This document shows, in pieces, positions 2,996-55,272 of a stretch of DNA of 64,000 bases. A program made the translations under genes and the position numbers. This DNA is from Chitinolyticbacter meiyuanensis (GTDB lineage Bacteria; Pseudomonadota; Gammaproteobacteria; Burkholderiales; Chitinibacteraceae). Under the pieces are notes generated by a model. It saw nothing but the letters and a program-made list of their open reading frames with translations. It was not told where the DNA came from and searched no databases. How positions within the stretch are numbered: the stretch's first letter is position 1; every line of letters starts with the position of its first letter. The stretch is taken from assembly GCF_008033135.1 (NCBI RefSeq), contig NZ_CP041335.1:3725925-3789924 (forward strand), read 5' to 3'.

Positions 2996-3090
2996 GACCA
3001 TCTCCTTGACGTTGATTAAAGGAACTTAGCCCAAAGCGTAAAAAAAGCAATCTGCATGTTTTCTGACTCAAATCACTGAATTCAACCTTT

Positions 3091-3110
3091 GCCCGCATTG
3101 CGGGCTTTTT
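3091..3110 (+). terminator. Rho-independent terminator upstream of lysis genes
   Basis: Stem GCCCGC / GCGGGC with an ATT loop and a T5 run. It reads plus-strand although no plus-strand gene lies just upstream, which suggests that the minus-strand accessory gene was inserted between an older phage gene and its terminator. Confidence 0.7.
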
Positions 3111-3125
3111 CTTTTGGAGCGTACC

Positions 3126-4746: not shown

Positions 4747-4755
4747 GGGGCACAA

Positions 4756-5088
4756 ATGCAAGACATGAACATCGTTTGGGACAGCTTGGTCCCTGGCCGG
4801 TCGCCGTACTTCGTGCCCCGTGTGGGCTGGCGCAACGGCATCACCGAGCTGCAGTTGACCGTTACCGGCGACGGGGCGGTGAGCGTGACACTCAACTTTT
4901 ACGGCAGCAATGACGGCATCGGCCTGGTGCCGCTCGGCACCCTGGCCGTATCCGGCACAGCGACGCCAGCGGTGCCGCTGACTGCGTCGGACTCCATCAC
5001 GCGGCCGTATCGGTTGTTGCTGGCTGAATTGGTCAACCCGGTAACGGGTGCGCCTACCCGCATCCTGCTCACGCAATCGGGGGTGTGA
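4756..5088 (+). CDS. Small phage structural protein, unknown
   Basis: Encodes 110 residues with an AGGGGG ribosome site seven bases before the ATG. The sequence is beta-rich with alternating hydrophobics (ITELQLTVTGDGAVSVTLNFYG) and no signal or membrane segment. It sits between the lysis module and the SGNH tail gene and ends in GTGTGA immediately before the next ATG. It may be a virion decoration or tail-tip protein; no family is recognised. Confidence 0.65.
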   Translation: MQDMNIVWDSLVPGRSPYFVPRVGWRNGITELQLTVTGDGAVSVTLNFYGSNDGIGLVPLGTLAVSGTATPAVPLTASDSITRPYRLLLAELVNPVTGAPTRILLTQSGV

Positions 5089-6172
5089 TATGCCGCTTTT
5101 AGCAACTGCAAAAAGAGGCCGCACGCCTTTTCCCGCCGGCCGAATCCCGCGCGTGGCCCTCTTTGGCGATTCGTTCGTCGCACTCTTTCACTGGTTGACC
5201 GGCGGCCATACCAAGACCATGGATCAAGCCATTTTTGGCTGGATGCTGGCATTGATCGGCTACCACCGCTTTCAACTCACGGTCTTTGCGGGTGTTGGTG
5301 GCAATACTGGGCCCATGATGCTGGACCGGTTCTGGCGTGACGTTGGTTCGAAAGCCGATCAATTCGACATCCTGCTTGGTGGGCAGAGCTGCGCGAATGA
5401 CTTCTTCGGCTTTGACTTGAGCGTCGATACGTCCTACGCCGCTTCGCAGACCATGATCGATGTGCTGTGCAACCAGCTCGGCAAGCGGGTGGCGTTTCTG
5501 ACCTCGGCGCCCCAGGCCGCCGCACGCAGCAACTACACGCAGGCCCGACAGGACCGTGGCCCCGCCTATGATCGACGCCTGCAGTCGCTGCAGGCGGTAA
5601 CGGACAACTTGGTCCTGCTGCCGACGCGTCGATCGTTGGTGAACTTGAGTGACACCGCCATCGGCGCGCCGCGCGCGGGCCAACATGACGGGCACCGATG
5701 GCATCCACGTCATCGGTCCAGGAGGCTACGACTTCGGCAAGGCCGCAGCGCCGGTCATTCAAGACTGGTTCCCGAAGATCGTCCGTAGTTTTAGTCCTCG
5801 CGAGGGCGTTGGCGACGGCTACAGCGGCAACCTGCTGCCTGTTGGCATGTCGGTGTTCGCTGGTGTGCCGGTGGCTGTCAGCGGCGGCGGTACCGGGGTT
5901 AGCGGCGTGGTTCCGCCTGGCTACGCCCTGGCCCGCGTCGGTAACCCCGCCACGCCGCTTGCTACGTGTGTGGGGTCTATGGTCCCCGACCCTGACGGCG
6001 ACTGGTTTCAGATGGAAATCAACTGGGGGGGCGCATCGGCGCTTGAACAGTTCCAGTTTGGCGTTGCGTCTGGGTCCAGCTTTCACGGGCAGGTTGCCGC
6101 TGGTGATGTGGTCTGACCTTCCCCCACCCAGCTATACCAAGAATTAGTTAGCATGACGGCCAAGGAGCCCGC

Positions 6173-34254: not shown

Positions 34255-35745
34255 TCAGTTGTAATACGCCGAGGTCGGCCCCGCCCACAGGCTCGGCACA
34301 TCCTTGGCCTTGGTTCCCGGCACCAGGTTGGCCTGATACATGCGGAACTCGCCATTGGCGGTACCCGCGGTGGGGAATAGCAGCTGCTGCGAGTAATCCA
34401 GCTTCATCAGCTCGACACTACCACTCGATTGCACCGTGTAGCTCTGCCCAGCCGCCACCGTCACCGGTGCCGCCAGCGTGCATTTGCGCAGACCGTAGCC
34501 CAGGCTTGGCGTGCAGCTCGATTGCGCGCCAGTGCTGATATTGCGCAGCGTCAGCGCCCCCACATTGCTGCCCGAAGCGGTAAAGCCGCCTACTTCGGTA
34601 AAGGTGCGCGCATAGCGGGTATTGGCATAGGTCACGGTGCAGCCGACGCAATCGGCGCTGTAGGCGTAATACGGCTGGCCGCCGAGCCGGGTGCCATTGC
34701 TCAAGCGGAAGCCATATTGCGGCAGCCGCGTGGCCGGATGCGCCAGATCCCGGTCGTTCATGTAGGAGCGATACTGGCCGTTCTCCGACCCATACTTCCA
34801 GCTGTTACCGTTGTCGGAGGACCACGCCACGTGCTCGCGCGGATCGAGCGACATCAGCGCGCCCTGCGCATTCGGGTTCAGTTCGTTGCGGGCGTGTGGC
34901 CCCGCCAGGGTGGTGTCGGCCAGTGGCATGTTGAACGAGAAGAAGTTGCCAGCCGGATCGGCGTGCGCATTGCTGATCACCACGCCGTACATGGTGCCGC
35001 CCTGCAGCGTGGCCGGCGTGTTCACCCAGGCCAGCACCGGGGTCGAGCCGTCGAGCTCGGCCTTGGCCTCGTTATGGCGGGTGCAGGCATTGACGGTTTC
35101 GGTGGCGATCACCGCGCCCGGCAAGCCGGTGGCCGGATTGATCTGCACCAAGTTGGCCCGCAGCAGACCACCATCCCCCTTGCCGTAGCCCGCGACATTG
35201 GGCTCGTCGCAGCTGGCGCCACGCAGCTTGAAGCCAAAGTAGAACCGATCGATAGTGATGGTGCCCGTCGGCACGAAGCGCAACAGCGTGCGGTAGCTGG
35301 CCGCCTTCAGCGGCGAGTCGTTCACGTTCTCGATGCCGATGGGCAGGGCCGCCGCCCGCCCACCGGCAGCCGGTACCGGCGTCGGGGTGGCCACCGGTGT
35401 GGGCCGGGGCGTGGGGGTTGGGGCCGGTGTGGGCGTTGGCGAACTGCCACCGCACACCGCACCGATGATCCAGGGCTGACCACTGCCTGCGGCACCGCTG
35501 TTGCTCGTCGGGTTCTGGCCCTGTGTCCAGTAGGCCGCCGTGTAATTGCGCCCCGCCTGACTCGCCACGGAACCGCCCCAATACACGGTGCCACTGTGCC
35601 ATGCCGGCTGGCATGCCACTGCTGCGGCCGCCAAGTTGGGCGCTGCAGAGGGCATGGCCACATCGGCCTCGTCCCCGCCGCCACATGCACTCAACATCGC
35701 TGTGGCTATACCGGCCACGCAGCCACTTTTGCTCCACTGCTTCAT
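34255..35745 (-). CDS. Chitin-binding-module lipoprotein
   Basis: Encodes 496 residues from the ATG with GGAGAAGG upstream. Lipobox LSAC with Cys21, so it is a lipoprotein. Residues 46-98 form a CBM5/12-like module (WHSGTVYWGGSVASQAGRNY, then YWTQGQNPTSNSG and GQPW). A Pro-Thr linker (102-126) joins a roughly 360-residue beta-rich domain I cannot assign, with two Cys pairs (CVGC and a later pair). Probably a surface or periplasmic protein that docks to chitin. A GAAAGCGCTTTC palindrome lies 39 bases upstream. Confidence 0.78.
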   Translation of the reverse strand: MKQWSKSGCVAGIATAMLSACGGGDEADVAMPSAAPNLAAAAVACQPAWHSGTVYWGGSVASQAGRNYTAAYWTQGQNPTSNSGAAGSGQPWIIGAVCGGSSPTPTPAPTPTPRPTPVATPTPVPAAGGRAAALPIGIENVNDSPLKAASYRTLLRFVPTGTITIDRFYFGFKLRGASCDEPNVAGYGKGDGGLLRANLVQINPATGLPGAVIATETVNACTRHNEAKAELDGSTPVLAWVNTPATLQGGTMYGVVISNAHADPAGNFFSFNMPLADTTLAGPHARNELNPNAQGALMSLDPREHVAWSSDNGNSWKYGSENGQYRSYMNDRDLAHPATRLPQYGFRLSNGTRLGGQPYYAYSADCVGCTVTYANTRYARTFTEVGGFTASGSNVGALTLRNISTGAQSSCTPSLGYGLRKCTLAAPVTVAAGQSYTVQSSGSVELMKLDYSQQLLFPTAGTANGEFRMYQANLVPGTKAKDVPSLWAGPTSAYYN

Positions 35746-35783
35746 GTTGCCTTCTCCATCTTTTCGAATATGCGCCAGCAAAA

Positions 35784-35795
35784 GAAAGCGCTTTC
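35784..35795. promoter_or_regulatory. LacI/CcpA-type operator-like palindrome
   Basis: A perfect 12-bp palindrome GAAAGCGCTTTC with central CG, resembling operators of LacI-family sugar regulators. It sits 39-50 bases before the lipoprotein start, in the promoter region. No LacI gene is in the window. Confidence 0.45.
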
Positions 35796-35885
35796 ATATT
35801 GAAGTGTGCCATGACGAAGGCATCGAAAATATCCGATGCCCGATTAGCGGCAATCAAATAAGCGTGAAAGGAAAACGGGTGGGAC

Positions 35886-35910
35886 GTCGGCAGGAAATCT
35901 TCCTGCCGAC
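35886..35910. terminator. Stem-loop after the PepSY operon
   Basis: A perfect 11-bp stem GTCGGCAGGAA / TTCCTGCCGAC with an ATC loop. It lies 60 bases beyond the small membrane protein gene on the minus strand. It has no strong U-tract and may act as a 3'-end stabiliser or weak terminator. Confidence 0.5.
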
Positions 35911-35972
35911 CGAGAAGAGACAAACGAGGTGCAGACCGGCCTCCGGCATCAAGCTGCCAGCCGGGGCGGGTT

Positions 35973-36176
35973 CTAGCGCGATGACTTGGGGCCCGGGCGG
36001 CACCAGCCGAACCAGATGCCAACCACCACGGGAAGCGCGAGGCAAATTCCGGCGGCCACATCGCCAGCACCACCATCGCTGAACAGGCCGGCCACGAGGC
36101 CGACGCTGGTCAGCACGCCGAGGATCATGGGCCAGCCCCAGATGGCAAGGCCGGTGCGATTCGTCGTTTTCTTCAT
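35973..36176 (-). CDS. Small two-helix membrane protein in siderophore-uptake operon
   Basis: Encodes 67 residues from the ATG overlapping the upstream stop (ATGA). Two hydrophobic helices (LAIWGWPMILGVLTSVGLVAG and AAGICLALPVVVGIWFG) are separated by a short DGGAGD loop. Similar small proteins accompany PepSY proteins and TonB receptors, but no named family is certain. Translational coupling argues that it works with the PepSY protein. Confidence 0.65.
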   Translation of the reverse strand: MKKTTNRTGLAIWGWPMILGVLTSVGLVAGLFSDGGAGDVAAGICLALPVVVGIWFGWCRPGPKSSR

Positions 36177-37312
36177 GCTGCCACTTCCATTTTCATGCCC
36201 TGCTTCTTCGGCTCGGTGGCACGCCCTTTGCGCAGCCAAAGATAGAGGCCACTACCCAGCACGATGATGGAGGCGATATCCAGCAATGCCCACAGTATCT
36301 TCATCGGCATGCCGGCGTAGTCGCCGAAATGCAGCGGCTGCGACACCAGCAACGCCGTCAGATACCACGGCAGGCGTGGCGATGCGGTCACCTCGGCGGT
36401 GCGCGCATCCACCAGCACCGGCTGCAGCAAGCGCGAGGTGAGCGGCTCGTCGCCACGCAGGAAGAATGTGGTGTGATGCGGGCTGGAGAACGCCGTGCCC
36501 GGGAACGCAACAAACGACAGTTGTGTGCCCGGTTCCGTCTTCAACGCCACATCCAGCGAGCGTTGCACCGAGGCGCGCTCGGCCACGGGCACCGTCGCCC
36601 GCCCCTGATAAGGCGCCAGCAGCACGCTGAGCTTGTCGTACTGCCAGTACTTGATCAGCAGATCGGCCCAGGTATTGATCATGCCGGTGCCGCCGACCAC
36701 GAACAGCCAGACCAGCGTGACGGCGCCGAGCAGGTTGTGCAGGTCCAGCCATTTCACGCGCGGGCGGCGATCGCGGCGCACTGCGCCGAAATCGAGCTTG
36801 CGCATGAAGGGCGCATATAGCACCGTGCCGCTGACGATGGCCACCAGCAGCAGCAGGCCCATCAGCCCGAGGAAGAGCTTGCCAGGCAGGCCGGCAAACA
36901 GATCCACGTGCAGCTTGAACATCACCCACATGAAGCCTTCGTCGAAGCGCGGCTGCGCCAGGACCGCGCCGGTGCGCGCATCGACCGCCACCGAGCGGAA
37001 ATCGTCGGTGGGGGCCGGCGTGGGCGTCATGGTGACGAACCACAGATCCTGGCTGTCCTCAGGCTGGGAGACGAACTGCACCACCCGGTCCGGATGCTGG
37101 GCACGGGCAATGTCCAGCACACGATCCAGACTGATGCGCGGCGTACCTGCCGGCATCCGCGGCGCTTCCACCTCGGTACCGAGCAGATGCCCGATCTCGT
37201 GGTGGAAAATCAGGGGCAGCCCCGTGATACAAAGCAGCAGCATGAATACGGTACAAACGAGGCTGCTCCACTTGTGTACCCAGGACCACGTCCTGATCGT
37301 CTTGTTTTGCAT
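36173..37312 (-). CDS. PepSY-associated membrane protein (siderophore utilisation)
   Basis: Encodes 379 residues. An N-terminal helix after KTIRTWSWVHKWSSLVCTVFM is followed by a periplasmic PepSY-like region, HVDLFAGLPGKLFLGLMGLLLLVAIVSG, VKWLDLHNLLGAVTLVWLFVVG and a final helix (LLDIASIIVLGSGLYLWL). His residues near helix ends (HKW, HHEIGH, LHVD, LHNLLG) suit haem-linked ferric-siderophore reductases of the FoxB/PiuB type. It lies six bases after the TonB receptor. Confidence 0.85.
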   Translation of the reverse strand: MQNKTIRTWSWVHKWSSLVCTVFMLLLCITGLPLIFHHEIGHLLGTEVEAPRMPAGTPRISLDRVLDIARAQHPDRVVQFVSQPEDSQDLWFVTMTPTPAPTDDFRSVAVDARTGAVLAQPRFDEGFMWVMFKLHVDLFAGLPGKLFLGLMGLLLLVAIVSGTVLYAPFMRKLDFGAVRRDRRPRVKWLDLHNLLGAVTLVWLFVVGGTGMINTWADLLIKYWQYDKLSVLLAPYQGRATVPVAERASVQRSLDVALKTEPGTQLSFVAFPGTAFSSPHHTTFFLRGDEPLTSRLLQPVLVDARTAEVTASPRLPWYLTALLVSQPLHFGDYAGMPMKILWALLDIASIIVLGSGLYLWLRKGRATEPKKQGMKMEVAA

Positions 37313-37318
37313 AGCCGA

Positions 37319-39514
37319 TTAGAACTTGTAGTTGGCGCTCAGGCTGACGCTGCGCGGCGCGCCGTACGTGATCTGGCTATACGCGTCGAACATGCCGTAG
37401 TAGGTCTCGTCGAACACGTTGTTGATGTTGAGCTGGGCCGATAGCTGACGGGTGATGTCGTAACGCGCCATCAGGTTGACCAGCGCGTAGTCGTCCTGCT
37501 CGATCCGTTCGGTCACGCCCAGCGGGTTGGTGGCATTGGTGTAGGTCTTGCCTTGCCAGTTCACGCCACCGCCCACGGTCAATGCATTGCCCAGTACCGG
37601 CAGACGATAGCTGGTAAACAGGCGCAGCAGCTTGCGCGGATAGATGGTGTTGATGTCCTCGCCGTTGGCATCGGTCAGCTTGAACTGCGAATAGCCAGCG
37701 CTGACGTTCCAATCCTTGAGCACCTCGCCGGACACTTCGAACTCGAAGCCCTTGCTGGTGGCACCCGACGATGCACGGTAGGCGGTTTCCGGCGGCACCG
37801 TGCCTGGGATGATCTGGCCGGTGCTCTGGCCCAGGTTGTCCTGCTTGATGCGGAACACCGCGAGCGATGCATTGAGGCGGCCTTCGAAGAAGGAACTCTT
37901 CACGCCGGCTTCCGTGGCATTGCCCTCGACCGGATCGAGGTAATTACCGTTGATGTCGCGCAGTTGCTGCGGCAGGAAGATGTTGGTGTAGCTGGCGTAG
38001 ACCGAATAGTTCTGGTTCAGGTCATAGGTGATGCCAGCGTACGGCGTGAGCTCGTGATCGAACTCCATGCTGTACGGATTGGTGAACGCATCGTCGCCCG
38101 ATTGCTTGTAGTTGGTCACACGCAGGCCCAGCAGCACCTTGAGCGGGTCGGCCAGATTCAGTTGCATCGCACCGTACAGCGCATCCTGGCGGATTTCCTT
38201 GTCGCCGTAGTAGGCGAGCGGACTCCACGATGGCTCGGGGAACGAACCATCCCAGTTGTTGAAGTCAGGCGCCGTACCCGCGCTGAAGCCCGGCGTGCCG
38301 GCACGGCTCTGGGCGTCGAACTGCTGGCGCGAGCTCACGTAGCCGACGGCCAGTTCGTGCTTGCGGCCAAACAGTTGCAGCGGGCCATTGGCCTGCACCC
38401 CAAAATCATCCTGCTTGGTGCGGGTGTTGTAGGAGCCGGGGAAAGTGGACATGCCAAGGCCGGTGTTGCGATCCGGCGCCCCGGATAGATAAAGCAGATA
38501 GGAATCGGCCTCGCGATCGCCGTGGCTGTAGGTCGCCTTGATGGTCCACTCATTGGCAAAGCGGTGCTCAAGTGCGGCATAAGCGTTTTGGTACACCGAA
38601 TTCCAGCGCACCCAGTCGGCCGAAGTGGACTTGGACCGATCCCAATCCGTACGGCCACCATCGGCGTAGAACACCGGCAGGCCGCCCCACATGGAGCCGC
38701 TTGGGTCGTTTTCCTGGCGGCTGTAGCCGGCAGTCAGCAGGGTATTGTCGGTCAGGTCGACCTCCACCGTGGCAAACAACGTGCTGGTTTCTTCCTCGCG
38801 CAGATCGAGGTAGCTGTCGCTGCGCTTGTATTCACCGACCACGCGACCACGCACGGTCTTGGCTTCGTTCAGCGGCGTGGCCACGTCGACGGTACCGCGT
38901 AGCTTGTTCCAGCTGCCGAATTCCAGCGCAGCGCTGCCGGTCAGCTCCTTGGCGGTGGCACGCTTGCGCACCAGGTTCACGGCAGCCGAGGGCTCGCCAG
39001 CACCCGCAGTCAAGCCAGTGGCGCCACGCACCACTTCCACCCGGTCGTAGATCGCGAGGCTGCTCAGGATTTCGCCGGAGCTCCACGGCTGATCCCAGGT
39101 GGTCGGCACGCCGTCGATCATCAGCGAGTTGATATCGAAGCCGCGCGCGGTGAACTGGCCGCGATCGGTTTCGTACTGGTTCACCGACACGCCGGTCACA
39201 TTGTTCAGCGCATCGGTGATGGTTTGCAGGTTCTGGTCTTCGATGCGCTGGCTGGTCACCACCGACACCGATTGCGGCGTTTCGCGCAGCGACAGGCTGA
39301 GCGGCGTCGAGGTCTTGACCTTGCCCGTGGTGTACGACTGCGTACCTTCGGTGCTTTCACCCAGCCCTTCACTGCCCGCGGTGACGGTGACGGTCGGCAG
39401 CACGACCTCTTTTTCCGGCTCTGCCGCCTGCGAGAAGGCCGGCAAGGCCAACCCGATCATCAGCGTGAGGGTTTTGATCTGGAATCGATTATGTGTCGAG
39501 GTTTTGAGCGGCAT
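37319..39514 (-). CDS. TonB-dependent siderophore receptor
   Basis: Encodes 731 residues from the ATG of MPLKTSTHNRFQIKTLTLMIG; a GTG 15 codons upstream is less likely. A signal peptide ends near FSQA. TonB box-like VVLPTVTVTA, plug domain (TPQSVSVVTSQRIEDQNLQT, IDGVPTTWDQPW, VEVVRGATGLTAGAGEPSAAVNLVRK) and a 22-strand barrel ending in LSANYKF with terminal aromatic Phe. It matches the FhuA/FpvA-type siderophore subfamily. Expected to be iron-repressed through the upstream Fur-like box. Confidence 0.94.
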   Translation of the reverse strand: MPLKTSTHNRFQIKTLTLMIGLALPAFSQAAEPEKEVVLPTVTVTAGSEGLGESTEGTQSYTTGKVKTSTPLSLSLRETPQSVSVVTSQRIEDQNLQTITDALNNVTGVSVNQYETDRGQFTARGFDINSLMIDGVPTTWDQPWSSGEILSSLAIYDRVEVVRGATGLTAGAGEPSAAVNLVRKRATAKELTGSAALEFGSWNKLRGTVDVATPLNEAKTVRGRVVGEYKRSDSYLDLREEETSTLFATVEVDLTDNTLLTAGYSRQENDPSGSMWGGLPVFYADGGRTDWDRSKSTSADWVRWNSVYQNAYAALEHRFANEWTIKATYSHGDREADSYLLYLSGAPDRNTGLGMSTFPGSYNTRTKQDDFGVQANGPLQLFGRKHELAVGYVSSRQQFDAQSRAGTPGFSAGTAPDFNNWDGSFPEPSWSPLAYYGDKEIRQDALYGAMQLNLADPLKVLLGLRVTNYKQSGDDAFTNPYSMEFDHELTPYAGITYDLNQNYSVYASYTNIFLPQQLRDINGNYLDPVEGNATEAGVKSSFFEGRLNASLAVFRIKQDNLGQSTGQIIPGTVPPETAYRASSGATSKGFEFEVSGEVLKDWNVSAGYSQFKLTDANGEDINTIYPRKLLRLFTSYRLPVLGNALTVGGGVNWQGKTYTNATNPLGVTERIEQDDYALVNLMARYDITRQLSAQLNINNVFDETYYGMFDAYSQITYGAPRSVSLSANYKF

Positions 39515-39889
39515 GGGCGAAGTGCACTTCTTGAAGAGTGAGTCGATCGGGTGAGGCACGCTCCCTGAAACGTGCCCTTATACGATAATGATAACATATC
39601 TCATTTGCAGTTAAAGAATTTTGCTTACAACATTTCGATTCGTTGATTGATGTCAAATCGCGTCAATTTCGCGCATATTGCAGACAAATCAGCCTGTAAA
39701 TCCCTCGAAAACGGTTTGGCGAAAATACGAAAACCAGGAAAGCACTGAATCAGAAACGGCAAAGTAAGCTTTATTTGCCTGCCCTGCCCTGTGCCCTCCA
39801 GCCATCGCCGACCGATGCCCTCATCCTCCACGCATGCCTTCGGCATGATGAGCACGCGCAATATGCGCGATAGAAGGATGGAGACAACA
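39515..39889. other. Divergent intergenic region, AT-rich, carrying the Fur box
   Basis: A stretch of 375 bases separates the receptor from the esterase gene. It holds the Fur-like site (39584-39602), a GGCACG/CGTGCC hairpin in the receptor leader (39555-39576), an AT-rich core (39600-39780) and two small stems just before the esterase (ATGCC/GGCAT near 39834 and CGCGCA/TGCGCG near 39855). No credible reading frame. Confidence 0.6.
39584..39602. promoter_or_regulatory. Fur box-like site
   Basis: GATAATGATAACATATCTC agrees with the GATAATGATAATCATTATC consensus at 14 of 19 positions, with the first eleven perfect. It is placed 70-88 bases upstream of the receptor ATG, where Fe-Fur would block transcription in iron-replete cells. 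Confidence 0.75.
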
Positions 39890-41080
39890 ATGAAAGCAAC
39901 AACAGCAATCGCATTGGCACTGGCCAGCAGCGCGGCTTTTGCGGCACCGGCATGGCAGGCCGGACAGGTCTACCAGGCGGGAGATCCCGTCACCGTGGCC
40001 GGCATCGACTACCGCGCGCAGTGGTGGACGCAAGGCCAGGCCCCGCAGACCCATAGCGGCCCGATTGGTGGCGGCCAGCCCTGGCTGGTGCTGGACCCAA
40101 ACCAGCCGCCGCTGGCCTGCGGCGATGTCTGGCGCAACGAGACCGCCTACGCCGGGCGCGCCGTGGCGAGCCGCCTGGGCCGCAACTACCTTGCCAACTG
40201 GTGGACACGCGGCAACGATCCGCAAGCGGCGGGCAGCCGCGAGGTGTGGCGTGATCTGGGGCCCTGCAACTATGTGCAGCAATACACGTTCACGCTGAAC
40301 GCGCCGCAGGTGCCGGTGCTGCAGTTCGACAATGCCACGCTCGGCAATGATTACGCGATCGAGGTGATCCTGCCCGCTGGTTTCCAGCCGGGAACAAGCT
40401 ACCCCGTGCTGTACGTGCTCGACTGGTTCGCCCTGCGGGATGCCTTCCTGATGCAATACCAGCCGCTGCAGGAAGCCGGACAGCTGCAATCATTCATCGT
40501 CGTGGGCGTTGGCTGCGCGCAGGATGAATTCAGCTGCTGGGCGCGGCGCGGGCGTGACTTCACGCCGACGTACACGGCCAGCGAAGACGGCTACTTCCGC
40601 ACCGACTTCGGGCTGCAGGGTGCGCCGGAGGTCCAGATCACCGGCCGTGCGCCGCAGTTCCTCTCCTTCCTCAAGCAGCAGCTGATGCCGCGCATTGAAA
40701 CGCGCTACCTCACCGATCCGGCCAAGCGCGGCATCCATGGCACATCGTTCAGCGCGCTGTTCGGCAGCTATGCACTGGTACATGACACTCCCACCTTCAG
40801 TCGCTACCTGCTGAACAGCCCGTCGCTGTGGTACGACGAGCACAAGATCGTCACAGAGGCCCAGCTCAGCACGACGGGCCAGTACGCCAAGGTCCAGCGC
40901 GTATTCGTCAGCGTGGGCAGCGAGGAGCCATCGGACTTCCGCCAGGATGCCGACACCTTTGCCGCGCTGTTGCGCAGCAAGCAGGTCGCCGTCGGCGAAG
41001 CCACGCTGGCCGGCGAAACGCATGAATCGGCACCGCTAGCGGCCACCGCCGCCGGCCTGCTCGACAGCTACGCGCGCTGA
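39890..41080 (+). CDS. Secreted esterase with two CBM5/12-like chitin-binding modules
   Basis: Encodes 396 residues from ATG 39890, with GGAG upstream. Signal peptide 1-19. Two CBM5/12-like modules occupy about 20-67 (WQAGQVYQAGDPV, AQWWTQGQAPQ) and 76-126 (CGDVWRNETAYAGR, ANWWTRGNDPQ). A putative-esterase (EsterD/IroE/Fes-like) alpha/beta-hydrolase follows, with nucleophile Ser286 in GTSFSALFG and a candidate catalytic His in ETHESAP. The substrate could be a chitin-linked ester, or a siderophore ester given the divergent receptor. The fusion is unusual. Confidence 0.82.
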   Translation: MKATTAIALALASSAAFAAPAWQAGQVYQAGDPVTVAGIDYRAQWWTQGQAPQTHSGPIGGGQPWLVLDPNQPPLACGDVWRNETAYAGRAVASRLGRNYLANWWTRGNDPQAAGSREVWRDLGPCNYVQQYTFTLNAPQVPVLQFDNATLGNDYAIEVILPAGFQPGTSYPVLYVLDWFALRDAFLMQYQPLQEAGQLQSFIVVGVGCAQDEFSCWARRGRDFTPTYTASEDGYFRTDFGLQGAPEVQITGRAPQFLSFLKQQLMPRIETRYLTDPAKRGIHGTSFSALFGSYALVHDTPTFSRYLLNSPSLWYDEHKIVTEAQLSTTGQYAKVQRVFVSVGSEEPSDFRQDADTFAALLRSKQVAVGEATLAGETHESAPLAATAAGLLDSYAR

Positions 41081-47248: not shown

Positions 47249-48487
47249 ATGGACTCCCTGTTTCGCCAAGAGGCAATGAATGCCCAGCAGGAAAGCCAGT
47301 ACGGCGGTGTCGTGCTCTTGCAGCCGTTGTCGTTCTCGCTGGTGGCCATCGCGGCCGTGGTTATCGTGCTGGCCGCGTTTGCCCTCTTGGTGTTCGGCCA
47401 GTACACGCAGAAGGTCGCGGCGCAGGGCAGCCTACAACCGGTCGGCGGCATCACGCGGCTGGCCAGCGATCGCCAGGCCATCGTCACTCGGATGCAGGTG
47501 AAGGAAGGCGACCGGGTCAAGGCGGGGCAGACCTTGTTCACGCTGTCGACGGAAAAGGAAAGCACCGACGGCACGCGGGTGCATGCCTCGATCAACGCCG
47601 CCTACGATAGCCAGATCAAGAGCCTGGATGCCGAACTCGCAGCGCAACGCCGGTTGATCGACGATGAAACGCGATCGAGCCAGGAGCGGCTGGCGCAGCT
47701 GAAGCTGGCGCAGCGCGATCTGGAGAGCGAGATCAAGACCCAGCACGAGAAGATCGACATCGTCTCTGCCGTGGTCGCCAAATACCAGGAGCTGGAAAAG
47801 ACGCAGTTCGTCTCCGCACTGGCAGTGCGCCAGCAGGAAGCCCTGCTGCTCGACCAGCGTGCCCGCCTATCCGAGCTCAACCGCAACCAGCGGCAGATGC
47901 AGATGGAGGTCCAGCAACTGGAATCCACGCTGGCACAGTTGCCGACCAAGCTGCGCACCACCGAGCAGCCGCTGCGTCGCGAGATCGAGACCTACCGCAC
48001 CTCGCTGCTGCGCAACGACACTGAGCGTGAACAGCAGATCGTGGCAACGGTGGACGGCACCGTCTCCGCAGTGTTGCGCCAGCCCGGGCAGAACGTGACA
48101 GCCGGCCAGACCGTGCTGACGCTGGTGCCGGCCGATGCGCCATTGCAGGCGGAATTGCTGGTACCCAGCGACGGCATCGGATTCGTGCGGCCCGGCAACA
48201 AGGTGGTGCTGCACTACGATGCCTATCCCTACCAGAGCTACGGCCTGCAACACGGCCGCGTACTCTCGGTGTCGCGCAACACGTTGCGGCCGGATGAGCT
48301 GCAGACCGACAGCAAGAGTTCGGTCTACCGGGTGCAGGTGGCGCTGGACCAGCAATGGGTCGATGCCTATGGCAAGCGCCTCACCTTCAATGCCGGCGAA
48401 ACACTGCAGGCCAAGATCCTGGTGCGGACCAAGACCGTGCGTGAATGGCTGCTCGACCCGATCTACGCGATGCGCGGAAAACTGTGA
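47249..48487 (+). CDS. Membrane fusion protein of bacteriocin exporter (HlyD/CvaA/MchE type)
   Basis: Encodes 412 residues, the usual length for microcin MFPs. One N-terminal membrane helix (LVAIAAVVIVLAAFALLVFG), a lipoyl-like half (RMQVKEGDRVKAGQTLFTL), a long coiled coil (about 110-245), a second lipoyl half (VDGTVSAVLRQPGQNVTAGQTVLTLVP) and a beta-barrel. It links the inner-membrane ABC exporter to an outer-membrane channel such as TolC, which is not encoded here. A TACAAT -10-like box lies at 47180-47185. Its stop is two bases before the exporter ATG. Confidence 0.93.
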   Translation: MDSLFRQEAMNAQQESQYGGVVLLQPLSFSLVAIAAVVIVLAAFALLVFGQYTQKVAAQGSLQPVGGITRLASDRQAIVTRMQVKEGDRVKAGQTLFTLSTEKESTDGTRVHASINAAYDSQIKSLDAELAAQRRLIDDETRSSQERLAQLKLAQRDLESEIKTQHEKIDIVSAVVAKYQELEKTQFVSALAVRQQEALLLDQRARLSELNRNQRQMQMEVQQLESTLAQLPTKLRTTEQPLRREIETYRTSLLRNDTEREQQIVATVDGTVSAVLRQPGQNVTAGQTVLTLVPADAPLQAELLVPSDGIGFVRPGNKVVLHYDAYPYQSYGLQHGRVLSVSRNTLRPDELQTDSKSSVYRVQVALDQQWVDAYGKRLTFNAGETLQAKILVRTKTVREWLLDPIYAMRGKL

Positions 48488-48489
48488 CC

Positions 48490-50646
48490 ATGGATGTACG
48501 TAGCCTCACCGACCGCATCGCCTTCCGCAGCGGCGCACGCCTGCCGATGATCTACCAGACCGAGGCCTCCGAATGCGGCCTCGCCTGCCTTGCCATGGTG
48601 GCCAACTACTACGGCCACGATTTCGATCTGTCGTCGTTGCGCCGCGAACTGGGCACCTCGCTCTCCGGCATCACGCTGGGGCATATGGTCGACCAGGCCA
48701 ACCAGCTCGGGCTCACCAGCCGGCCGCTGCGGCTGGAGCTGGACGAACTCGATCAACTGCAACTGCCCGCAGTGCTGCACTGGAACTTCAGCCACTTCGT
48801 GGTGTTGAAGCGCGTGAGCAAGAAAGGCCTCGTCATCCACGATCCGGCCATCGGCATCCGCACCGTGACCCGCAGCGAAGCGGATACCGCGTTCACCGGC
48901 ATCGCACTGGAGCTGATGCCCGGTGCCGACTTCGAGCCGCGCGAGGCCAAGCAACGCATCAGCCTGCGCAAGCTGATCGGCACCGTGCACGGGCTCAAGC
49001 GCACCATCGTCAAGCTCTTGACGCTGGCCTTCGCACTGGAAGTGCTCAGCCTCGCCCTGCCCTTTCTCACGCAGTGGATCATCGATGGCGTGCTGTCCAC
49101 CGGCGATTTGTCGCTGCTGACGCTGATCGGCATCGGCGGCATTGCCATCATCGCGCTGCAGCAATTGCTCAGTCTGGCCCGGGCCTGGTTTCTCATCTAC
49201 ATCAAGACCACCGTCAACCTGCAGTGGGTATCCAATGTGTTCACGCACATGGTGCGGCTGCCGGTCGAGTACTTCGAGCGCCGCCACTTGGGCGACATCG
49301 TTTCCCGCTTCGGCGCCATCCACCAGATTCAGGAAACGCTGAGCAGCAGCTTCATCGTCACCGTGCTCGATGGCGTGATGTCGTTCGCGCTGCTGGCCAT
49401 GATGCTGCTCTACAGCCCCTTGCTGACCGCGCTGACCGTGGGGCTGGTGCTGGTCTACACGGTGCTGCGGCTGCTGTGGTATCGCCCGCTGCGCGAAGCC
49501 AGCGAAAAGATGGTGGTGAGCGCTGCCAAGCAGGACAGCCACTTTCTGGAAACGGTACGTGGCGTACGCTCGATCAAGCTGTTCACCCGCGAGAACGAAC
49601 GCCGGGCCAACTGGCTCAATCTCTCGGTCGAGCAGATCAACTCCCTCGTTCATGTCAGCAAGCTCAACCTCGCCTTCGAGGCCATCAACGGCAGCCTGAA
49701 CGGCCTGCACATGATCGCCATCCTGTGGGTCGGTGCCAGTCTGGCGCTGGATGGATACCTTTCCGCCGGCATGCTGGTCGCCTATGTCGCCTACAGCAAC
49801 CAGTTCAGCGCGCACATCACCAGCCTTGTCAACAAGATGATCGAACTGAAGATGCTGGGCCTGCAGTGCGAGCGGCTGTCCGACATCGTGCTGACCGAAC
49901 GCGAGGACATCGGCAACCCGGCCGATATCGATCTGGAACGGGTCAGCGCCGACATCGAGCTCGTCGATGTGAGCTATCGCTACGCCAGCACCGAGCGCGA
50001 CATCCTGCAGCATTGCAGCCTGAAGCTGCGCGCCGGCGAATCGGTGGCGCTGACGGGGCCTTCCGGTTGTGGCAAGACCACGCTGCTGAAACTGGTGCTG
50101 GGCATCCTGCAGCCGCGCGAAGGCGAGATTCGCGTTGGCGGCACTCCCATCCACACGCTGGGCCTGACCAACCTGCGCAAGCTCGTCGCCACCGTGATGC
50201 AGGACGACCAGCTGTTCTCCGGCTCCATCGCCGAGAACATCGCCTTCTTCAGCAAGCAGGTCGACTGGGACTGGATCCACGAGTGCGCCCGCCGCGCCGG
50301 CATCCACGACCAGATCCTGCAGATGCCGATGGGCTACTACACGCTGGTCGGCGACATGGGCACCACGCTGTCGGGCGGGCAGAAGCAGCGCATCCTGCTG
50401 GCGCGCGCGCTCTACAAGAAGCCGCGCATCATCCTGCTGGACGAGGCTACCAGCCATCTCGACACCGAGAGCGAATACGTGGTCAATCAGGCCATTCGCG
50501 AGCTCAACATCACACGGCTCATCATCGCCCACCGCCCGGAAACCATCCGCATGGCCGAGCGGGTGGTCGAAATGCGCGAGGGGCGCATCGTTGCGCCCAC
50601 CGAGCCCTCCCAGACCGCCGCAGCGGAAGAAGCGGTGACCGGCTGA
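48490..50646 (+). CDS. Peptidase-containing ABC exporter (C39, MchF/CvaB type)
   Basis: Encodes 718 residues. N-terminal C39 peptidase: Gln23, catalytic Cys29 (QTEASECGLACLAMVANYYG), His102 (NFSHFVVL) and Asp118 (IHDPAIG), all intact. A membrane domain with about six helices (160-450) is followed by a nucleotide-binding domain with Walker A GPSGCGKTT near 520, LSGGQKQR near 627 and LLDEATSHLD. It cleaves double-glycine leaders and exports the core peptide. The substrate is most likely the precursor at 54571-54762. Confidence 0.95.
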   Translation: MDVRSLTDRIAFRSGARLPMIYQTEASECGLACLAMVANYYGHDFDLSSLRRELGTSLSGITLGHMVDQANQLGLTSRPLRLELDELDQLQLPAVLHWNFSHFVVLKRVSKKGLVIHDPAIGIRTVTRSEADTAFTGIALELMPGADFEPREAKQRISLRKLIGTVHGLKRTIVKLLTLAFALEVLSLALPFLTQWIIDGVLSTGDLSLLTLIGIGGIAIIALQQLLSLARAWFLIYIKTTVNLQWVSNVFTHMVRLPVEYFERRHLGDIVSRFGAIHQIQETLSSSFIVTVLDGVMSFALLAMMLLYSPLLTALTVGLVLVYTVLRLLWYRPLREASEKMVVSAAKQDSHFLETVRGVRSIKLFTRENERRANWLNLSVEQINSLVHVSKLNLAFEAINGSLNGLHMIAILWVGASLALDGYLSAGMLVAYVAYSNQFSAHITSLVNKMIELKMLGLQCERLSDIVLTEREDIGNPADIDLERVSADIELVDVSYRYASTERDILQHCSLKLRAGESVALTGPSGCGKTTLLKLVLGILQPREGEIRVGGTPIHTLGLTNLRKLVATVMQDDQLFSGSIAENIAFFSKQVDWDWIHECARRAGIHDQILQMPMGYYTLVGDMGTTLSGGQKQRILLARALYKKPRIILLDEATSHLDTESEYVVNQAIRELNITRLIIAHRPETIRMAERVVEMREGRIVAPTEPSQTAAAEEAVTG

Positions 50647-50685: not shown

Positions 50686-51966
50686 TCACTCCGAGCGCAA
50701 GCGTACCGGTTCGATCTCGTCGAGGAAGAACACGCCGTCGACCCTCGGCGCATCGCCAGCGGCACGGCCCAGCATGTCTTCGCCGTAGGCACGATCATCG
50801 GCATAGTTGGCGGCGCGGATCGACAAGCGATTGCGCAGTTTCTCGTCGGCGCCGGGCTCACGCGCGATATTGCGCAAATCGAAGAAGCCGGCACGCGGGC
50901 CATGGGCGTGCCATACCGCCTCCCAGCTTCGCGTTGGTGGCGTGTGCAGCGGATAGGCCTGCCGGCTGTCGTAGTTCAGTGCCGCGCCGCCGTGCCCGGT
51001 CACCCAGGCGATGTAGACATCGTCGCCGTAGACCTGCTTGAGCAGGTCGCCCATGCTGTACTGGCGCATCGGCACGCAGCGCATGCTGTGCGCCCAGATC
51101 ACGATGCGGCGACCAGGGTAGGCATGCTCGGCCAGCCAGAGCAGGTTCTCGGCCATTTGCCCATCCCGGCTGCACTGGCCCACCAGCTCCTGCTGGGCAG
51201 TGCGCAGGCTGCGCAGTTGCTGCAGCCAGAAACCATCCTGCAGGGTGGCGCCGGCCTCCAACGAGAGCCGCGCCAGCAGCTCGGCGTAGATCGCCTCGAA
51301 CGCCGACAGTGCCGGTTGCAACGCCGCATCGAGCGGCTGCATCCGGATTGTGGCATCGGCCACGTGGAGGAAATCCGGCCAAGCTGCATGCGCCAGCAGC
51401 TCCGGCCAGCCGCGTTCCGCCAGGTAGGCCGCCAGCTCGGACAGCAGTGTGTCCTTGGCATGGCACCCCGCTTGCGGTACGTCGAAGGCGCCCAGTGCCA
51501 GAGGCCGTTCGGTATCGCGCGTGGCATCCACGTAGTCGAACAAGGCCTGGGTCTGCTCCGCCTGCGCGTAGATGTAGAACAACGCGCCGTCTACAGCCTG
51601 GGCCGCCGGCTCGCCCGCGGCGATGCACTGGCCAACCTTGCTGCCGTCGTACATGCCACTGCCCATCAGCAGCACATCGAAGCCATGCTCGCGATGCAGG
51701 TAGCGCACGAGGCGGCTCTTGAGCGCATAGGCATTGCCTTCGCCATGTGTCTGCGAGCCCAGCATCACGATGCGGGCATCGCCGACCGAGCGGCCGAATG
51801 CGGCCAGATCAGCGTCATCGGCTTGCATGTCCGTGCCGTGCAGTGCCGTCATCCTCGCTTGCAGCCATGGGCCGAATCCGGCGAGATCGAAATCGTCGCC
51901 GGCCTGCGCGATCTCGGGCAGCGCGGTTGGCAACGGCGGAGTCAATGTGGGGGCAAGCTGCGACAT
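50686..51966 (-). CDS. Erythromycin-esterase-like protein in microcin-like cluster
   Basis: Encodes 426 residues from MSQLAPTLTPPLPTALPEI. Ere-family layout is visible: VGDARIVMLGSQTHGEGNAYALKSRLVRYLHREHGF (His74), RRIVIWAHSMRC and VYIAWVTGHGG. In macrolide esterases the first motif carries Glu (GExTHG); here it is Ser (GSQTHG), and the Glu expected in the following FALE-type strand is Gly (LLMGSG). The chemistry is therefore probably different. Being third in the precursor-modifier operon, a role in peptide modification or self-protection is inferred. Confidence 0.75.
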   Translation of the reverse strand: MSQLAPTLTPPLPTALPEIAQAGDDFDLAGFGPWLQARMTALHGTDMQADDADLAAFGRSVGDARIVMLGSQTHGEGNAYALKSRLVRYLHREHGFDVLLMGSGMYDGSKVGQCIAAGEPAAQAVDGALFYIYAQAEQTQALFDYVDATRDTERPLALGAFDVPQAGCHAKDTLLSELAAYLAERGWPELLAHAAWPDFLHVADATIRMQPLDAALQPALSAFEAIYAELLARLSLEAGATLQDGFWLQQLRSLRTAQQELVGQCSRDGQMAENLLWLAEHAYPGRRIVIWAHSMRCVPMRQYSMGDLLKQVYGDDVYIAWVTGHGGAALNYDSRQAYPLHTPPTRSWEAVWHAHGPRAGFFDLRNIAREPGADEKLRNRLSIRAANYADDRAYGEDMLGRAAGDAPRVDGVFFLDEIEPVRLRSE

Positions 51967-52003: not shown

Positions 52004-53980
52004 TCAGAGTTCAAGCGCAAAGGACGGCTGCGGCAGGCTGTCGTCGCCGGTATCGAGCTGGACCGCCACGACGCTGGCCGGATGGTGCGCCAATGGCAGC
52101 CACAGGCGGATCGCCTGGCCGGTGGTCGACGGCAGGGCCTCGGCATGCACGCCGACACCATCCAGCCGACAATCCGCCGCTGCGAGCCGGCTACCCGGCG
52201 CTGCGTCATGGACATCGACAAAGCAGCGCTCGGCACGGGCATCGTAGCCGCGCAGCACGGTGATGCGGCCGCCTGCCCATTGCCAATAGGCCACGATGGC
52301 ACGCTCCAGATGCTCGGCGAAGAACCGACGCCCCTGCGACAGCAAGGCATCGACGTGCTCGCGCAGCATGGCCACGCCAGCAGGGCCGGCCTGGCGCGCG
52401 GCGCGTAGGGCCTCTTCCGATTGCTTCATCATCCGATCCCGGAACAGCACGGTCGGCGCCTTGTTGCGCAAGTCCGCGTTGAGCGCCACCAGCCGGCGGA
52501 ATCGGTCGGGAGCCAAGCCGAGCGTGCCGGCCACCAGCGTGGCCAGATGCCGGTATTCGAGATAGACCCGCTTGAAGCGTTGCCGCAGCTGCGCATCGGG
52601 CAGCACCGACGCCATCTCTTCCCATTCATCATTCGCCGCCAGGCGCAGTACCGCGGGCAGATCGCAATCGCCCATCCGCTCCGGCACCGTATGCAGCGGC
52701 TGCCGCTTCATCGCGCCGGCGCGGGCGAGCTCGTATGCCACCTGGGCCAGGTGGTAAGTCGGCTCGAAATCCTGGATCGCTTCGATCACCGGCAGTGGAA
52801 AACCAGCCATGTGCAGCATGTATTTCTGCATATAGCCATCGAACTGCTCGGTGAAGGGCTGCTGCAAGCGGCCCTCGTCCACCTCCAGAATCCAGCCGGT
52901 GCTGCCCGCCACATACTTGCGGCCGTGGAACAGCATGCCATTCAACACATGCTGGTATTGCCAGTGGTCTTCCCAGAACGAAGGCAGACCACGGGCCACC
53001 AGGTAATTGCCGTAGCCGGAGAACGCGGTCATGGTGCCGAAATCAATATACTTGCCGGTGATCTCGATATTCGAGCTGGTGATGGCGCCATGCACCAGCC
53101 GGCGCGCCCGGGCTGCCGCATGCTGCCTGGCGTAGCGATGCGCCAACCGGGTCAGTACCGGCACCAGGCTCGCCTGGGTCAACGGGCCTTCCTCTCCGCC
53201 GGGCACGGCCAAATGGAGGCGCTCGTAAGCGCCGCGGACGCGTTCGACATCGTGCGGTAGCTCGAGACCATCCTGCGGCTTGTAGAACGGCACCCGCTCG
53301 TAATGGGCGGGGCGCAGATTCGGTTCGCGCACGATGATCGCCCCTTCCGGCGCGTCGCCGCTTTGGTTGCCGACGAGCCCGAAGTCGTACTTGGTCGACT
53401 TGCCGGTGGCAATGACCGCCAGGATGCGGACCCCGCCCAGTGGTAGTTCGGCGTGGGTGATCTCGCCCCAGATGGCTTCGCGTATCCCTTCCTCGACCGA
53501 TGCACCACCGTGGGTGTGCCACTCGTCGCCATGCTTGGCAGCCAGCGGATTACGGCCGATGCCCTTGAGCTGGAAGTAGCCATTCAACCCGCAACGCACG
53601 CCGCCGCCATTGGCGCAGATGCGCCCATTGGTGCCATAGCGCTCGCCGACGAATTCGCGCTCCTCGTCGAGGAAATCCTCCGGCGCATCCATGCTGGAAG
53701 GCACCATGAAGCCGAAAGCATCCAGCAACTGCCGGTGCAGCTCGGCTTCGCTGCGTGGTGCGTCGATGCTCAGGTCGTGGATCAAGGCATGGTTGACCCA
53801 CACCACGCGCGGCTTCGCCAGACGACGCGCCTTGAACCGCACGAATGCGGCAGTGGGCAGTTCCCGGTCGTAATAGATCGTGTTGTCCGCAGACACCACG
53901 TCATAAGTCTTGATTTGAGGGGCAATCGGCATGGTGGAGGCACCCTGATAGAGGACGGAAGCTGGCGTGGTGGCGTTCAT
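52004..53980 (-). CDS. SelO/YdiU-like pseudokinase-fold protein, putative RiPP modifier
   Basis: Encodes 658 residues, ATG with GAGG upstream, two bases after the acyltransferase stop. Segments align with SelO protein adenylyltransferase: GYFQLKGIGRNP (Lys139 matching the LKGAG nucleotide-binding Lys), SVEEGIREAIWGEITHAELPLGGVR, GAIIVREPNL, LVHGAITSSN and KYIDFG (DFG Asp313). The SelO TDN motif reads SSN (302-304), so activity may differ. A 300-residue C-terminal extension is unassigned. Its partnership with an HlyC-like protein parallels MchC/MchD and MceJ/MceI of microcins; this is inference. Confidence 0.7.
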   Translation of the reverse strand: MNATTPASVLYQGASTMPIAPQIKTYDVVSADNTIYYDRELPTAAFVRFKARRLAKPRVVWVNHALIHDLSIDAPRSEAELHRQLLDAFGFMVPSSMDAPEDFLDEEREFVGERYGTNGRICANGGGVRCGLNGYFQLKGIGRNPLAAKHGDEWHTHGGASVEEGIREAIWGEITHAELPLGGVRILAVIATGKSTKYDFGLVGNQSGDAPEGAIIVREPNLRPAHYERVPFYKPQDGLELPHDVERVRGAYERLHLAVPGGEEGPLTQASLVPVLTRLAHRYARQHAAARARRLVHGAITSSNIEITGKYIDFGTMTAFSGYGNYLVARGLPSFWEDHWQYQHVLNGMLFHGRKYVAGSTGWILEVDEGRLQQPFTEQFDGYMQKYMLHMAGFPLPVIEAIQDFEPTYHLAQVAYELARAGAMKRQPLHTVPERMGDCDLPAVLRLAANDEWEEMASVLPDAQLRQRFKRVYLEYRHLATLVAGTLGLAPDRFRRLVALNADLRNKAPTVLFRDRMMKQSEEALRAARQAGPAGVAMLREHVDALLSQGRRFFAEHLERAIVAYWQWAGGRITVLRGYDARAERCFVDVHDAAPGSRLAAADCRLDGVGVHAEALPSTTGQAIRLWLPLAHHPASVVAVQLDTGDDSLPQPSFALEL

Positions 53981-53981: not shown

Positions 53982-54431
53982 TCATGCCTCGCTACGGCGC
54001 CGACTACGCACCACTTTGCTCACTTGGCCTTCTGCCGTGTAGCGTATCCAGTTGATGCCTTCAGCTTGGGGCAGGCGCTGCCGCAGCTCGCGCCGGATGC
54101 GATGCATCTGCCCATCGAGCACCACGCAATCGAGCACCCAGGCAGTGCGGCTCTCGTTCCATTCCATCTCGTGTAGCCAGTGCTTGTTGTGCACGGCAAG
54201 CCGCTGCTCGACATCCGGCGCCAGCCAGGCCCAGATCACGTAGGCGCAGGGCCAGCCCCCTGGGCCGATGAAGACTTCGCACTGCTCGTGGTGCAGTGCG
54301 ACGTCGAGAAATTCGGGAATCGCGTCCACCAGGGGGCGCGCTACGGCGCCGGCGCGGGTACGCAGAAAAGTGACATACCCCAGCGTCTGGCAGAAACGCG
54401 TTGCGTAATCGTTCAGTTTGGAATCGTCCAT
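53982..54431 (-). CDS. HlyC-like acyltransferase homologue (MchD/MceI-like)
   Basis: Encodes 149 residues. It aligns along most of its length with RTX-toxin lysine acyltransferases: AIPEFLDVALHHEQCEVFIG, GWPCAYVIWAWLAPDVEQRL, WNESRTAWVLDCVVLDG with the catalytic-position Asp101, and RRELRQRLPQAEGINWIRY. The N-terminal catalytic His of HlyC (SPLHRNW) has no counterpart; the region reads TRAGAVARPL. MceI and MchD of siderophore microcins are known members that attach a glycosylated siderophore. It lies between the precursor and the SelO-like gene. Confidence 0.75.
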   Translation of the reverse strand: MDDSKLNDYATRFCQTLGYVTFLRTRAGAVARPLVDAIPEFLDVALHHEQCEVFIGPGGWPCAYVIWAWLAPDVEQRLAVHNKHWLHEMEWNESRTAWVLDCVVLDGQMHRIRRELRQRLPQAEGINWIRYTAEGQVSKVVRSRRRSEA

Positions 54432-54570
54432 GCGGCGCTACACCTGAACCGGATCAGCCGGTATTGAAACGACAAGGCCGGCAGCCACGAGGGCCACCGG
54501 CACAGGTATCCTCACAAGCCCCCACGGCAAACGCCGGATCGGGGCAACGTGGGATCAGACGCTTACGAGC
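54432..54570 (-). other. Precursor-acyltransferase spacer with attenuator-like hairpins
   Basis: A stretch of 139 bases after the precursor stop. On the minus strand it contains GCCGGTGGCC...GGCTGCCGGC stem-forming sequence followed by CTTGTCGTTT. This could be a partial terminator setting a high precursor-to-enzyme ratio, as is common in peptide clusters. No immunity-like reading frame is seen. Confidence 0.4.
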
Positions 54571-54762
54571 TTAGCGCTCGTAGTACCACGGCGGCTCGCT
54601 GCCCGGAGGCCACGGATAAGTCGGCGTCGGAGTAGGCGTCGGGGTCGGTGTAGGCGTCGGGGTAGGCGTCGGCGCGCCCGGATAGCCCGGGTATTCGCCG
54701 TACGGCGGCTCGTAGCCAGCACCAGCAACCTGGTTCAGCTCATTGAATTGCAACAAACGCAT
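54571..54762 (-). CDS. Microcin-like precursor peptide with double-glycine (GA) leader
   Basis: Encodes 63 residues; AAGGAAGG seven bases before the ATG is a strong ribosome site. Residues 1-15 (MRLLQFNELNQVAGA) match the double-glycine leader rule: Leu at -12, Glu -8, Leu -7, Val -4, Gly -2, Ala -1, as in microcin E492 and H47 leaders. The predicted core (16-63) begins GYEPPYGEYPGYPG, continues with nine Pro-Thr repeats (31-48) and ends YPWPPGSEPPWYYER. It is unusually rich in Tyr, Pro and Trp, with no Cys and one Ser. Upstream in-frame codons are not needed. Confidence 0.82.
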   Translation of the reverse strand: MRLLQFNELNQVAGAGYEPPYGEYPGYPGAPTPTPTPTPTPTPTPTPTYPWPPGSEPPWYYER

Positions 54763-55272
54763 GGGACTTCCTTCCTTGTATGTAGTTAAGGTTGGACAAC
54801 GCCTGCCAAGCTTCTCAACAGCCAAAGCAAAAACAGGCGTCAGCATCCTCACCCACCTACGTCAAAAATGACAACGATAAACTGCATGATGGCGCTGTCA
54901 AATTACGTCAACAACTAGGAACAATCTGACCTAGCCCGAGCATTTTTCCGTGCATTTTCAAGCACAAATCCTTGAGTCGAATTGGCTTTCCTGGCCCCAA
55001 CACCCTGTCAGCCGAGCAGTATTTACAGGCCAGGATATGTTGCTGAAAAGAAACACGGGCAAGCACGCCGCAACACTTGCCTGCCTAGCCTTGCCGCTCA
55101 TCGCCAGATTTCAGCCACGCCCACTGGTGCAAAAGCGATGCGACCAACGCTGCCGCATTGACGACGGCAGCGGCCATTGGTTAGGCTGCACATCCTCTCT
55201 GATGCTGCTGCAGATGAAGGCGCTCCTCCCGCCAAGTCGGGAGGCCACTCCGCGTCCATCGGAACAGCAGCA
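54763..55272. other. Divergent regulatory region between precursor and rtcB
   Basis: 510 bases. On the precursor side: a leader hairpin with arms 54799-54805 and 54834-54840 (ACGCCTG/CAGGCGT), a TTGACA...TATCGT promoter-like pair on the minus strand (about 54868-54905), two copies of TACGTCAA (54858-54865 and 54904-54911), and a CTAGG-N10-CCTAG inverted repeat (54915-54934). The rtcB side (54935-55272) shows no clear box. A short frame (from 55037) overlaps rtcB and is not supported. Confidence 0.5.

Follow-up and report, generated by a model that had tools for sequence, protein, structure and literature searches.

The closest described systems to the locus reported here are the class IIb microcins, in which a SelO-fold protein (MchC/MceJ) and an HlyC-fold protein (MchD/MceI) attach glucosylated enterobactin to the microcin in its C-terminal region (PMC3281104, PMC7472721); the precise function of MceI/MceJ is called unknown in a review (PMC7472721). 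One criterion of the class is a leader within the first 15 residues, ending in GG or GA (PMC11634061). The nearest published non-enterobacterial case is a bacteriocin cluster with mceI/mceJ homologues in Aliivibrio wodanis (PMC4462113). In that cluster, a GG-leader peptide, a peptidase-containing ABC exporter (PCAT), HlyD, and the MceI/MceJ homologues occur together outside Enterobacterales, as in the cluster described here, which differs from it in that A. wodanis has a CAAX-protease gene as candidate immunity gene and an erythromycin-esterase-like (Ere) protein is not mentioned in the passage on that cluster (PMC4462113). A full-text literature search, with most subscription journals outside its coverage, returned no prior description of HlyC/SelO RiPPs or of Ere in such clusters.

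Here, we describe a cluster of this kind in a 64,000-nucleotide stretch of the genome of Chitinolyticbacter meiyuanensis, hereafter the window. In common with microcins E492, H47, and M, it has a 15-aa leader of the G-A/G-G type, fewer than two Cys, an HlyC plus SelO pair, and HlyD with a C39 PCAT. The leader MRLLQFNELNQVAGA ends in GA, the core contains 0 Cys, and the HlyC and SelO family members, corresponding to the MceI/MceJ (MchD/MchC) pair, are adjacent. The Ser-rich C-terminus ending in Ser is lacking, with one Ser in the 48-residue core, as is an enterobactin-type siderophore pathway in the complete genome of the producer (G000). Unlike the class IIb microcin clusters, that of the window has no IroB-like glycosyltransferase and no Fes/IroD-like gene, and it has an extra Ere-like protein and a SelO protein on a separate branch. 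Strict class IIb membership was thus rejected, the Ser tail and the catecholate pathway having been tested and found absent. In its working the system is like the class IIb microcins, and by the published criteria, for want of a Ser-ended tail, it lies outside the class.

The precursor gene occupies 54571-54762 of the minus strand, with its start ATG at 54762, its stop ending at 54571, and a good ribosome-binding site (AAGGAAGG). Its 63-aa product is composed of the 15-residue leader MRLLQFNELNQVAGA (54718-54762, minus strand), homologous to cluster leaders in four other genomes of the family, and a 48-aa core with a (PT)9 spacer. Written in full, the leader is followed by the core GYEPPYGEYPGYPGAPTPTPTPTPTPTPTPTPTYPWPPGSEPPWYYER, that is, GYEPPYGEYPGYPGA(PT)9YPWPPGSEPPWYYER, the C-terminal end being PPWYYER. 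The core contains 0 Cys, 0 Lys, 1 Ser, 7 Tyr, 2 Trp, 18 Pro, and 9 Thr, and the PT repeat (54619-54672, minus strand) consists of exactly nine Pro-Thr units. An earlier sequence-only reading of this DNA, which gave no strand, had named Leu-12, Glu-8, Leu-7, Val-4, Gly-2, and Ala-1 as leader positions and had counted 48 core residues with no Cys, one Ser, and nine PT units; each of these was verified. The same reading had excluded lanthionines and disulfides, and with 0 Cys in the core a lanthipeptide or disulfide bacteriocin was likewise rejected here. Upstream of the precursor, a sigma-70-like promoter, TTGACA-16-TATCGT (54874-54901, minus strand), was found as a consensus match only. A terminator-like hairpin, possibly a partial terminator and again a consensus match only, lies between the precursor and the hlyC-like gene (54477-54501, minus strand); two such hairpins were found against 1.2 expected in shuffles, and matches of this sort are no rarer in shuffled sequence. 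A hairpin between precursor and enzyme genes can favour expression of the precursor over the enzymes.

The open reading frame is short and of low complexity, and it could in principle be a chance frame within a repetitive stretch. A leader position profile, derived from ten leaders found elsewhere than in the genome of the window, gave the precursor start 30.7 bits, the top score of the 4627 possible starts that the window contains; the second-best start reached 16.2 bits, and the maximum over ten shuffled windows was 15.1. A degenerate DNA leader pattern had 8 matches in 43 whole genomes of the family, compared with 0 for the reversed-pattern control. These matches comprise four of the five tandem precursors of Andreprevotia lacus and one each in Andreprevotia sp., Jeongeupia, Iodobacter, and the window, and all 8 lie in SelO/HlyC clusters. 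Differences among the nine PT units number 0, 0, and 8 by codon position, all at the third (chance about 1.5e-4), which indicates that the repeat is kept at the protein level. The leader score, the third-position-only variation, and the genome-wide co-occurrence with the cluster effectively refute a chance frame, the probability of which we put close to nil. Strong support for the GA-leader precursor claimed in the sequence-only reading comes from other genera, in which conserved leaders occur together with a C39-peptidase exporter and the SelO/HlyC pair. As judged from these sequence features, the minus-strand frame at 54571-54762 is almost certainly a real precursor, and at this level its leader, its gene cluster, and its three-part core, with an aromatic N-block, a low-complexity spacer, and an aromatic C-block, are plain.

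Downstream on the precursor strand, the HlyC-fold gene, the SelO-like gene, and the erythromycin-esterase-like gene follow in this order, and the HlyD and C39 exporter genes are convergent with them. The HlyD-family membrane-fusion protein is encoded at 47249-48487 on the plus strand and the C39 PCAT, in which the Cys/His/Asp motifs are present, at 48445-50646 on the same strand; the PCAT and Ere genes are convergent and 39 nt apart. The GA leader, the nearby C39-peptidase PCAT, and HlyD are the marks of a C39-PCAT double-glycine peptide. No PADLOC match for anti-phage defence was obtained for the HlyC-, SelO-, and Ere-like enzymes, and a defence reading was rejected on this ground. With regard to plasmid or phage spread, only three Salmonella plasmids, carrying distant HlyC homologues, and no phage were found. 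In an empty-site comparison, the flanking RtcB and aminotransferase, used as queries against the same-genus genome G016, gave nothing at the strict E-values chosen.

The HlyC-fold acyltransferase of MceI/MchD type (149 aa; 53982-54431, minus strand) matches PF02794 with an E-value of 3.4e-13. Its model, made from 28 sequences (pLDDT 87), matches ApxC (4WHN) with an E-value of 1.9e-6 and a TM score of 0.73, and its profile also matches 4WHN. The SelO-like gene starts 1 nt after the hlyC-like gene and encodes a SelO-fold enzyme of MchC/MceJ type of up to 658 aa (52004-53980, minus strand), the true start of which may be internal. The model of this protein, made from 29 sequences (pLDDT 83), matches SelO/YdiU with a best Foldseek E-value of 7e-12 (about 1e-11). 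Single-sequence PDB searches with the two proteins gave nothing, whereas the profiles and models did match. The window protein has the fold and the ATP/metal residues of a SelO adenylyltransferase and, in common with SelO/YdiU enzymes, the ATP-pocket Asn/Asp motifs, with Asn286 and Asp295 invariant in the family (alignment A3); its identity to those enzymes is only about 15%. With the RTX toxin-activating acyltransferases (HlyC/ApxC, PF02794), the HlyC-like protein has the fold, the family, and a conserved Asp in common. It differs from them in that the ApxC-type catalytic His column is not conserved, a family-specific His48 being kept along with Asp101, and in that the window's substrate peptide has no Lys. 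On these two grounds, lysine acylation of the RTX type was rejected. Activation and transfer of the peptide C-terminus fits better than acyl-ACP-dependent lysine acylation, because of the SelO ATP-pocket residues, the His48/Asp101 pair without the ApxC-type His, and a core devoid of Lys.

Proteins are acylated by enzymes of the HlyC family, and Ser, Thr, and Tyr are AMPylated by SelO proper. These known activities, together with a core that offers 7 Tyr, 9 Thr, and no Lys and with the occurrence of small clusters lacking a payload-making gene, allow for a decoration of side chains, in which the HlyC-fold protein acylates or the SelO-fold protein AMPylates the Tyr/Thr hydroxyls of the core and the C-terminus is left free, much like the decorated ends imagined in the sequence-only reading. 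We consider this rather unlikely, since the known MceIJ/MchCD pair works at the C-terminal region, the ApxC-type catalytic His is not conserved, and few Tyr are common to the sister cores.

The third enzyme, a PF05139 erythromycin-esterase-like protein by Pfam (426 aa from its MSQLAP start; 50686-51966, minus strand), shares its family and two His motifs with the erythromycin esterases EreA/B and the Bacillus structures 2RAD and 3B55. In the Ere-like proteins of the window, Andreprevotia and Jeongeupia (G004, G036), and Iodobacter, the two His motifs are kept and two canonical Glu positions are changed; the Glu and His residues that we take to be catalytic are those of the EreB work. As the two active-site Glu positions are changed, a role as a simple macrolide esterase is unlikely. 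The window-type protein also differs from the known esterases in being a cluster partner of SelO/HlyC or fused to them. The clusters of the window, Andreprevotia sp., Jeongeupia, and Iodobacter each include a PF05139 protein; the gene adjoins the SelO/HlyC pair in the window and in loci L019 and L020, and in L021 it is part of the cluster that holds the pair. In Albitalea terrae (L022), a single 1098-aa protein encoded at 2229-5525 on the plus strand is assigned by Pfam a SelO (84-271), an HlyC (542-664), and an Ere (762-1083) domain. That the three are naturally fused is good evidence of SelO, HlyC, and Ere acting together. The A. terrae locus also has a second SelO-HlyC pair at 9.9-12.2 kb.

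An unmodified secreted peptide, whether adhesive, signalling, or spacer-like, beside enzymes that serve another substrate, has in its favour that PT-rich linkers are ordinary in the secreted proteins of this organism. The sequence-only reading had pointed out a PT linker in the lipoprotein at 34255, and this linker was confirmed (SSPTPTPAPTPTPRPTPVATPTPVPAAGG). An immunity scan for a ribosome-binding site with a hydrophobic segment gave no ORF between 45.5 and 56.7 kb, which is odd for a bacteriocin and would suit an unmodified peptide; the same scan gave one in the class IIb-like control L046 and none in the control L060, so that some immunity ORFs escape it. We nevertheless hold an unmodified peptide to be very unlikely, given that the leader is found only together with SelO/HlyC enzymes, that the precursor gene heads the hlyC-selO-ere strand, and that the fusion shows the enzymes to act together. 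As a side observation, the lipoprotein-like ORF (about 34255-36060, minus strand) has a carbohydrate-binding-like module on one side of its PT-rich linker and a C-terminal domain on the other.

A scan of the genomes of about 85,000 species with the SelO-like family yielded 29 loci. HlyC adjoins SelO in nearly all of them, HlyD and PCAT are present in most, and most have at least one small ORF with a GG/GA leader. The gene order is precursor-HlyD-PCAT-SelO-HlyC-Ere in Andreprevotia sp. and Jeongeupia, and five precursors-HlyD-PCAT-SelO-HlyC-TolC-like in A. lacus. The SelO protein of the window groups with those of A. lacus, Andreprevotia sp., and Jeongeupia (tree support 99/96). The class IIb-like controls, Pantoea L046 and Salmonella plasmid L060, have the same SelO/HlyC enzyme families as the window, and their SelO proteins form a separate long branch with full support. 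Their precursors are Ser-ended (...SSSGS, ...NSGS, ...SNGS), and an EryCIII-type or annotated glycosyltransferase is present in their clusters. GT2 glycosyltransferases were found by Pfam in the Photobacterium and Iodobacter clusters, a similar ORF was read by eye in Enterovibrio, and the Iodobacter cluster also has radical-SAM and methyltransferase genes. These cluster glycosyltransferases suggest that the partners elsewhere in the family are sugar-bearing.

The sequence-only reading had proposed comparing homologous cores for a variable PT-repeat number between conserved aromatic ends, and this comparison was carried out on the sister pair G004/G036. The two have the same N-terminal core block, ATEVRLSFEGPGTDLTIP, and the same C-terminal block, EVKYSWEA, and substitutions and an indel make the intervening Gly/Ser/Thr-rich spacer different in both sequence and length. 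This supports conserved ends and a variable spacer, but among the genomes searched no homologue had PT repeats in its core. The window peptide follows the same block-spacer-block plan but with (PT)9 as its spacer. The suggested stiff rod therefore holds only in part: a low-complexity spacer is retained in the relatives, where it is Gly/Ser/Thr-rich, and a rigid Pro rod is not conserved. What the relatives share is the spacer, not its rigidity. In A. lacus, the five tandem precursor genes (L016, part of the L018 DNA; 2751-4517, plus strand) have near-identical leaders and related cores, the C-ends of which have a Trp in common and terminate in Ala (GWQGA, DWIGA, NWQAA). In SelO/HlyC clusters of Photobacterium and Enterovibrio with GT2 glycosyltransferase-like genes (L032, L040, L031), the precursors end in EEGRY, EEGRYR, EEGYYR, and GEYRR, reminiscent of WYYER in the window.

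The reading that we favour, and to which we give about an even chance, is that of a class II microcin-like peptide, the C-terminus of which is conjugated by the SelO/HlyC/Ere module to a non-catecholate partner, followed by cleavage and export; leader, core, and cluster are read from the DNA itself, and the chemistry and payload are presumed. A microcin-like conjugation is favoured because leader and SelO/HlyC cluster co-occur exactly (8/8 in 43 genomes, 0 controls). In this scheme, the leader would recruit the precursor peptide, the SelO-fold protein (MchC/MceJ type) would spend ATP to activate the peptide C-terminus, and the HlyC-fold protein (MceI/MchD type) would transfer the activated C-terminus to a hydroxyl of a small partner. 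In the class IIb microcins, the C-terminal carboxyl is esterified with a hydroxyl of the sugar. The Ere-fold protein might, as a guess, handle or edit the ester bond, and the PCAT would cut after Gly-Ala and secrete the conjugate, which would probably act on competing bacteria. The MceIJ chemistry is carried over to the window by analogy with distant homologues, the class IIb-like pair lying on a separate branch.

As to the partner, the best scores in the complete genome G000 were 193.7 bits for DHB-AMP ligase (cut-off 723.55) and 192.4 for isochorismate synthase (cut-off 224.75), neither of which passes, and both enzymes are over the cut-off in the same-genus genome G016 and in the cluster-bearing genomes G003, G004, and G036. 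A self-made enterobactin-type catecholate is accordingly improbable, and the attached partner in the window's genome is probably something else. The missing Ser tail had been taken in the sequence-only reading to exclude a siderophore; this was too strong, as the known pair modifies the peptide C-terminus, and the better argument is genomic, namely no catecholate pathway over cut-off and no cluster glycosyltransferase. The genome does contain, at C1:15-55 kb (L057-L059), a PKS-NRPS locus with condensation domains by Pfam and with cyclic-peptide-exporter-, FhuF-, PvdQ-, TauD-like, and TonB-receptor ORFs, read by eye from ORF starts, which is likely an acylated peptide siderophore locus. The siderophore-microcin mechanism could then operate with the organism's own non-catecholate acylated peptide siderophore in place of glucosylated enterobactin. 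The conjugating pair, which is the same as in class IIb microcins, the PKS-NRPS locus with its TonB-receptor, TauD-, PvdQ-, and FhuF-like ORFs, and a TonB receptor and a PepSY protein encoded 8-11 kb away are in keeping with such a payload. It is an unlikely one in our estimate, as no cluster gene ties the peptide to a siderophore, the C-terminal sequence is unlike class IIb, and the same-leader clusters of Andreprevotia and Jeongeupia have no annotated siderophore gene, although the DHB pathway is present elsewhere in those genomes.

Returning to the preferred C-terminal conjugation, this clade keeps the pair, the leader, and the exporter without the Ser tail, and in the window's genome without a catecholate pathway, which suggests a more general peptide-conjugating module. 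We propose tentatively, and with somewhat less than even confidence, a ribosomal peptide conjugate in which a three-enzyme SelO-HlyC-Ere module, akin to the siderophore-microcin system but now outside it, furnishes peptides that contain a spacer with a non-siderophore (or non-catecholate) group at their C-terminus. The compact clusters and the SelO-HlyC-Ere fusion offer a setting for elucidating the reaction and for seeking new tagged peptides outside Enterobacterales.

Several further observations were made along the way. At 36173-41080 of the window, a TonB-dependent receptor, a PepSY membrane protein, and a CBM5/12-esterase lie side by side in an iron-uptake-like arrangement. The Salmonella plasmid pSA20021456.1 (L060) has class IIb-like precursors ending in Gly-Ser at 2875-3147 and 5413-5670, both on the minus strand, and its SelO-like gene is annotated as 'hypothetical' and its HlyC-like gene as 'lysine acyltransferase'. 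The Vibrio relatives found here differ from the window in their leaders and in their Gly-rich cores: in L023-L029, L034, and L045 (Vibrio, Photobacterium), Gly-rich precursors with the leader MYNLSVDEISMVDGG or similar lie beside SelO/HlyC, HlyD, and PCAT.
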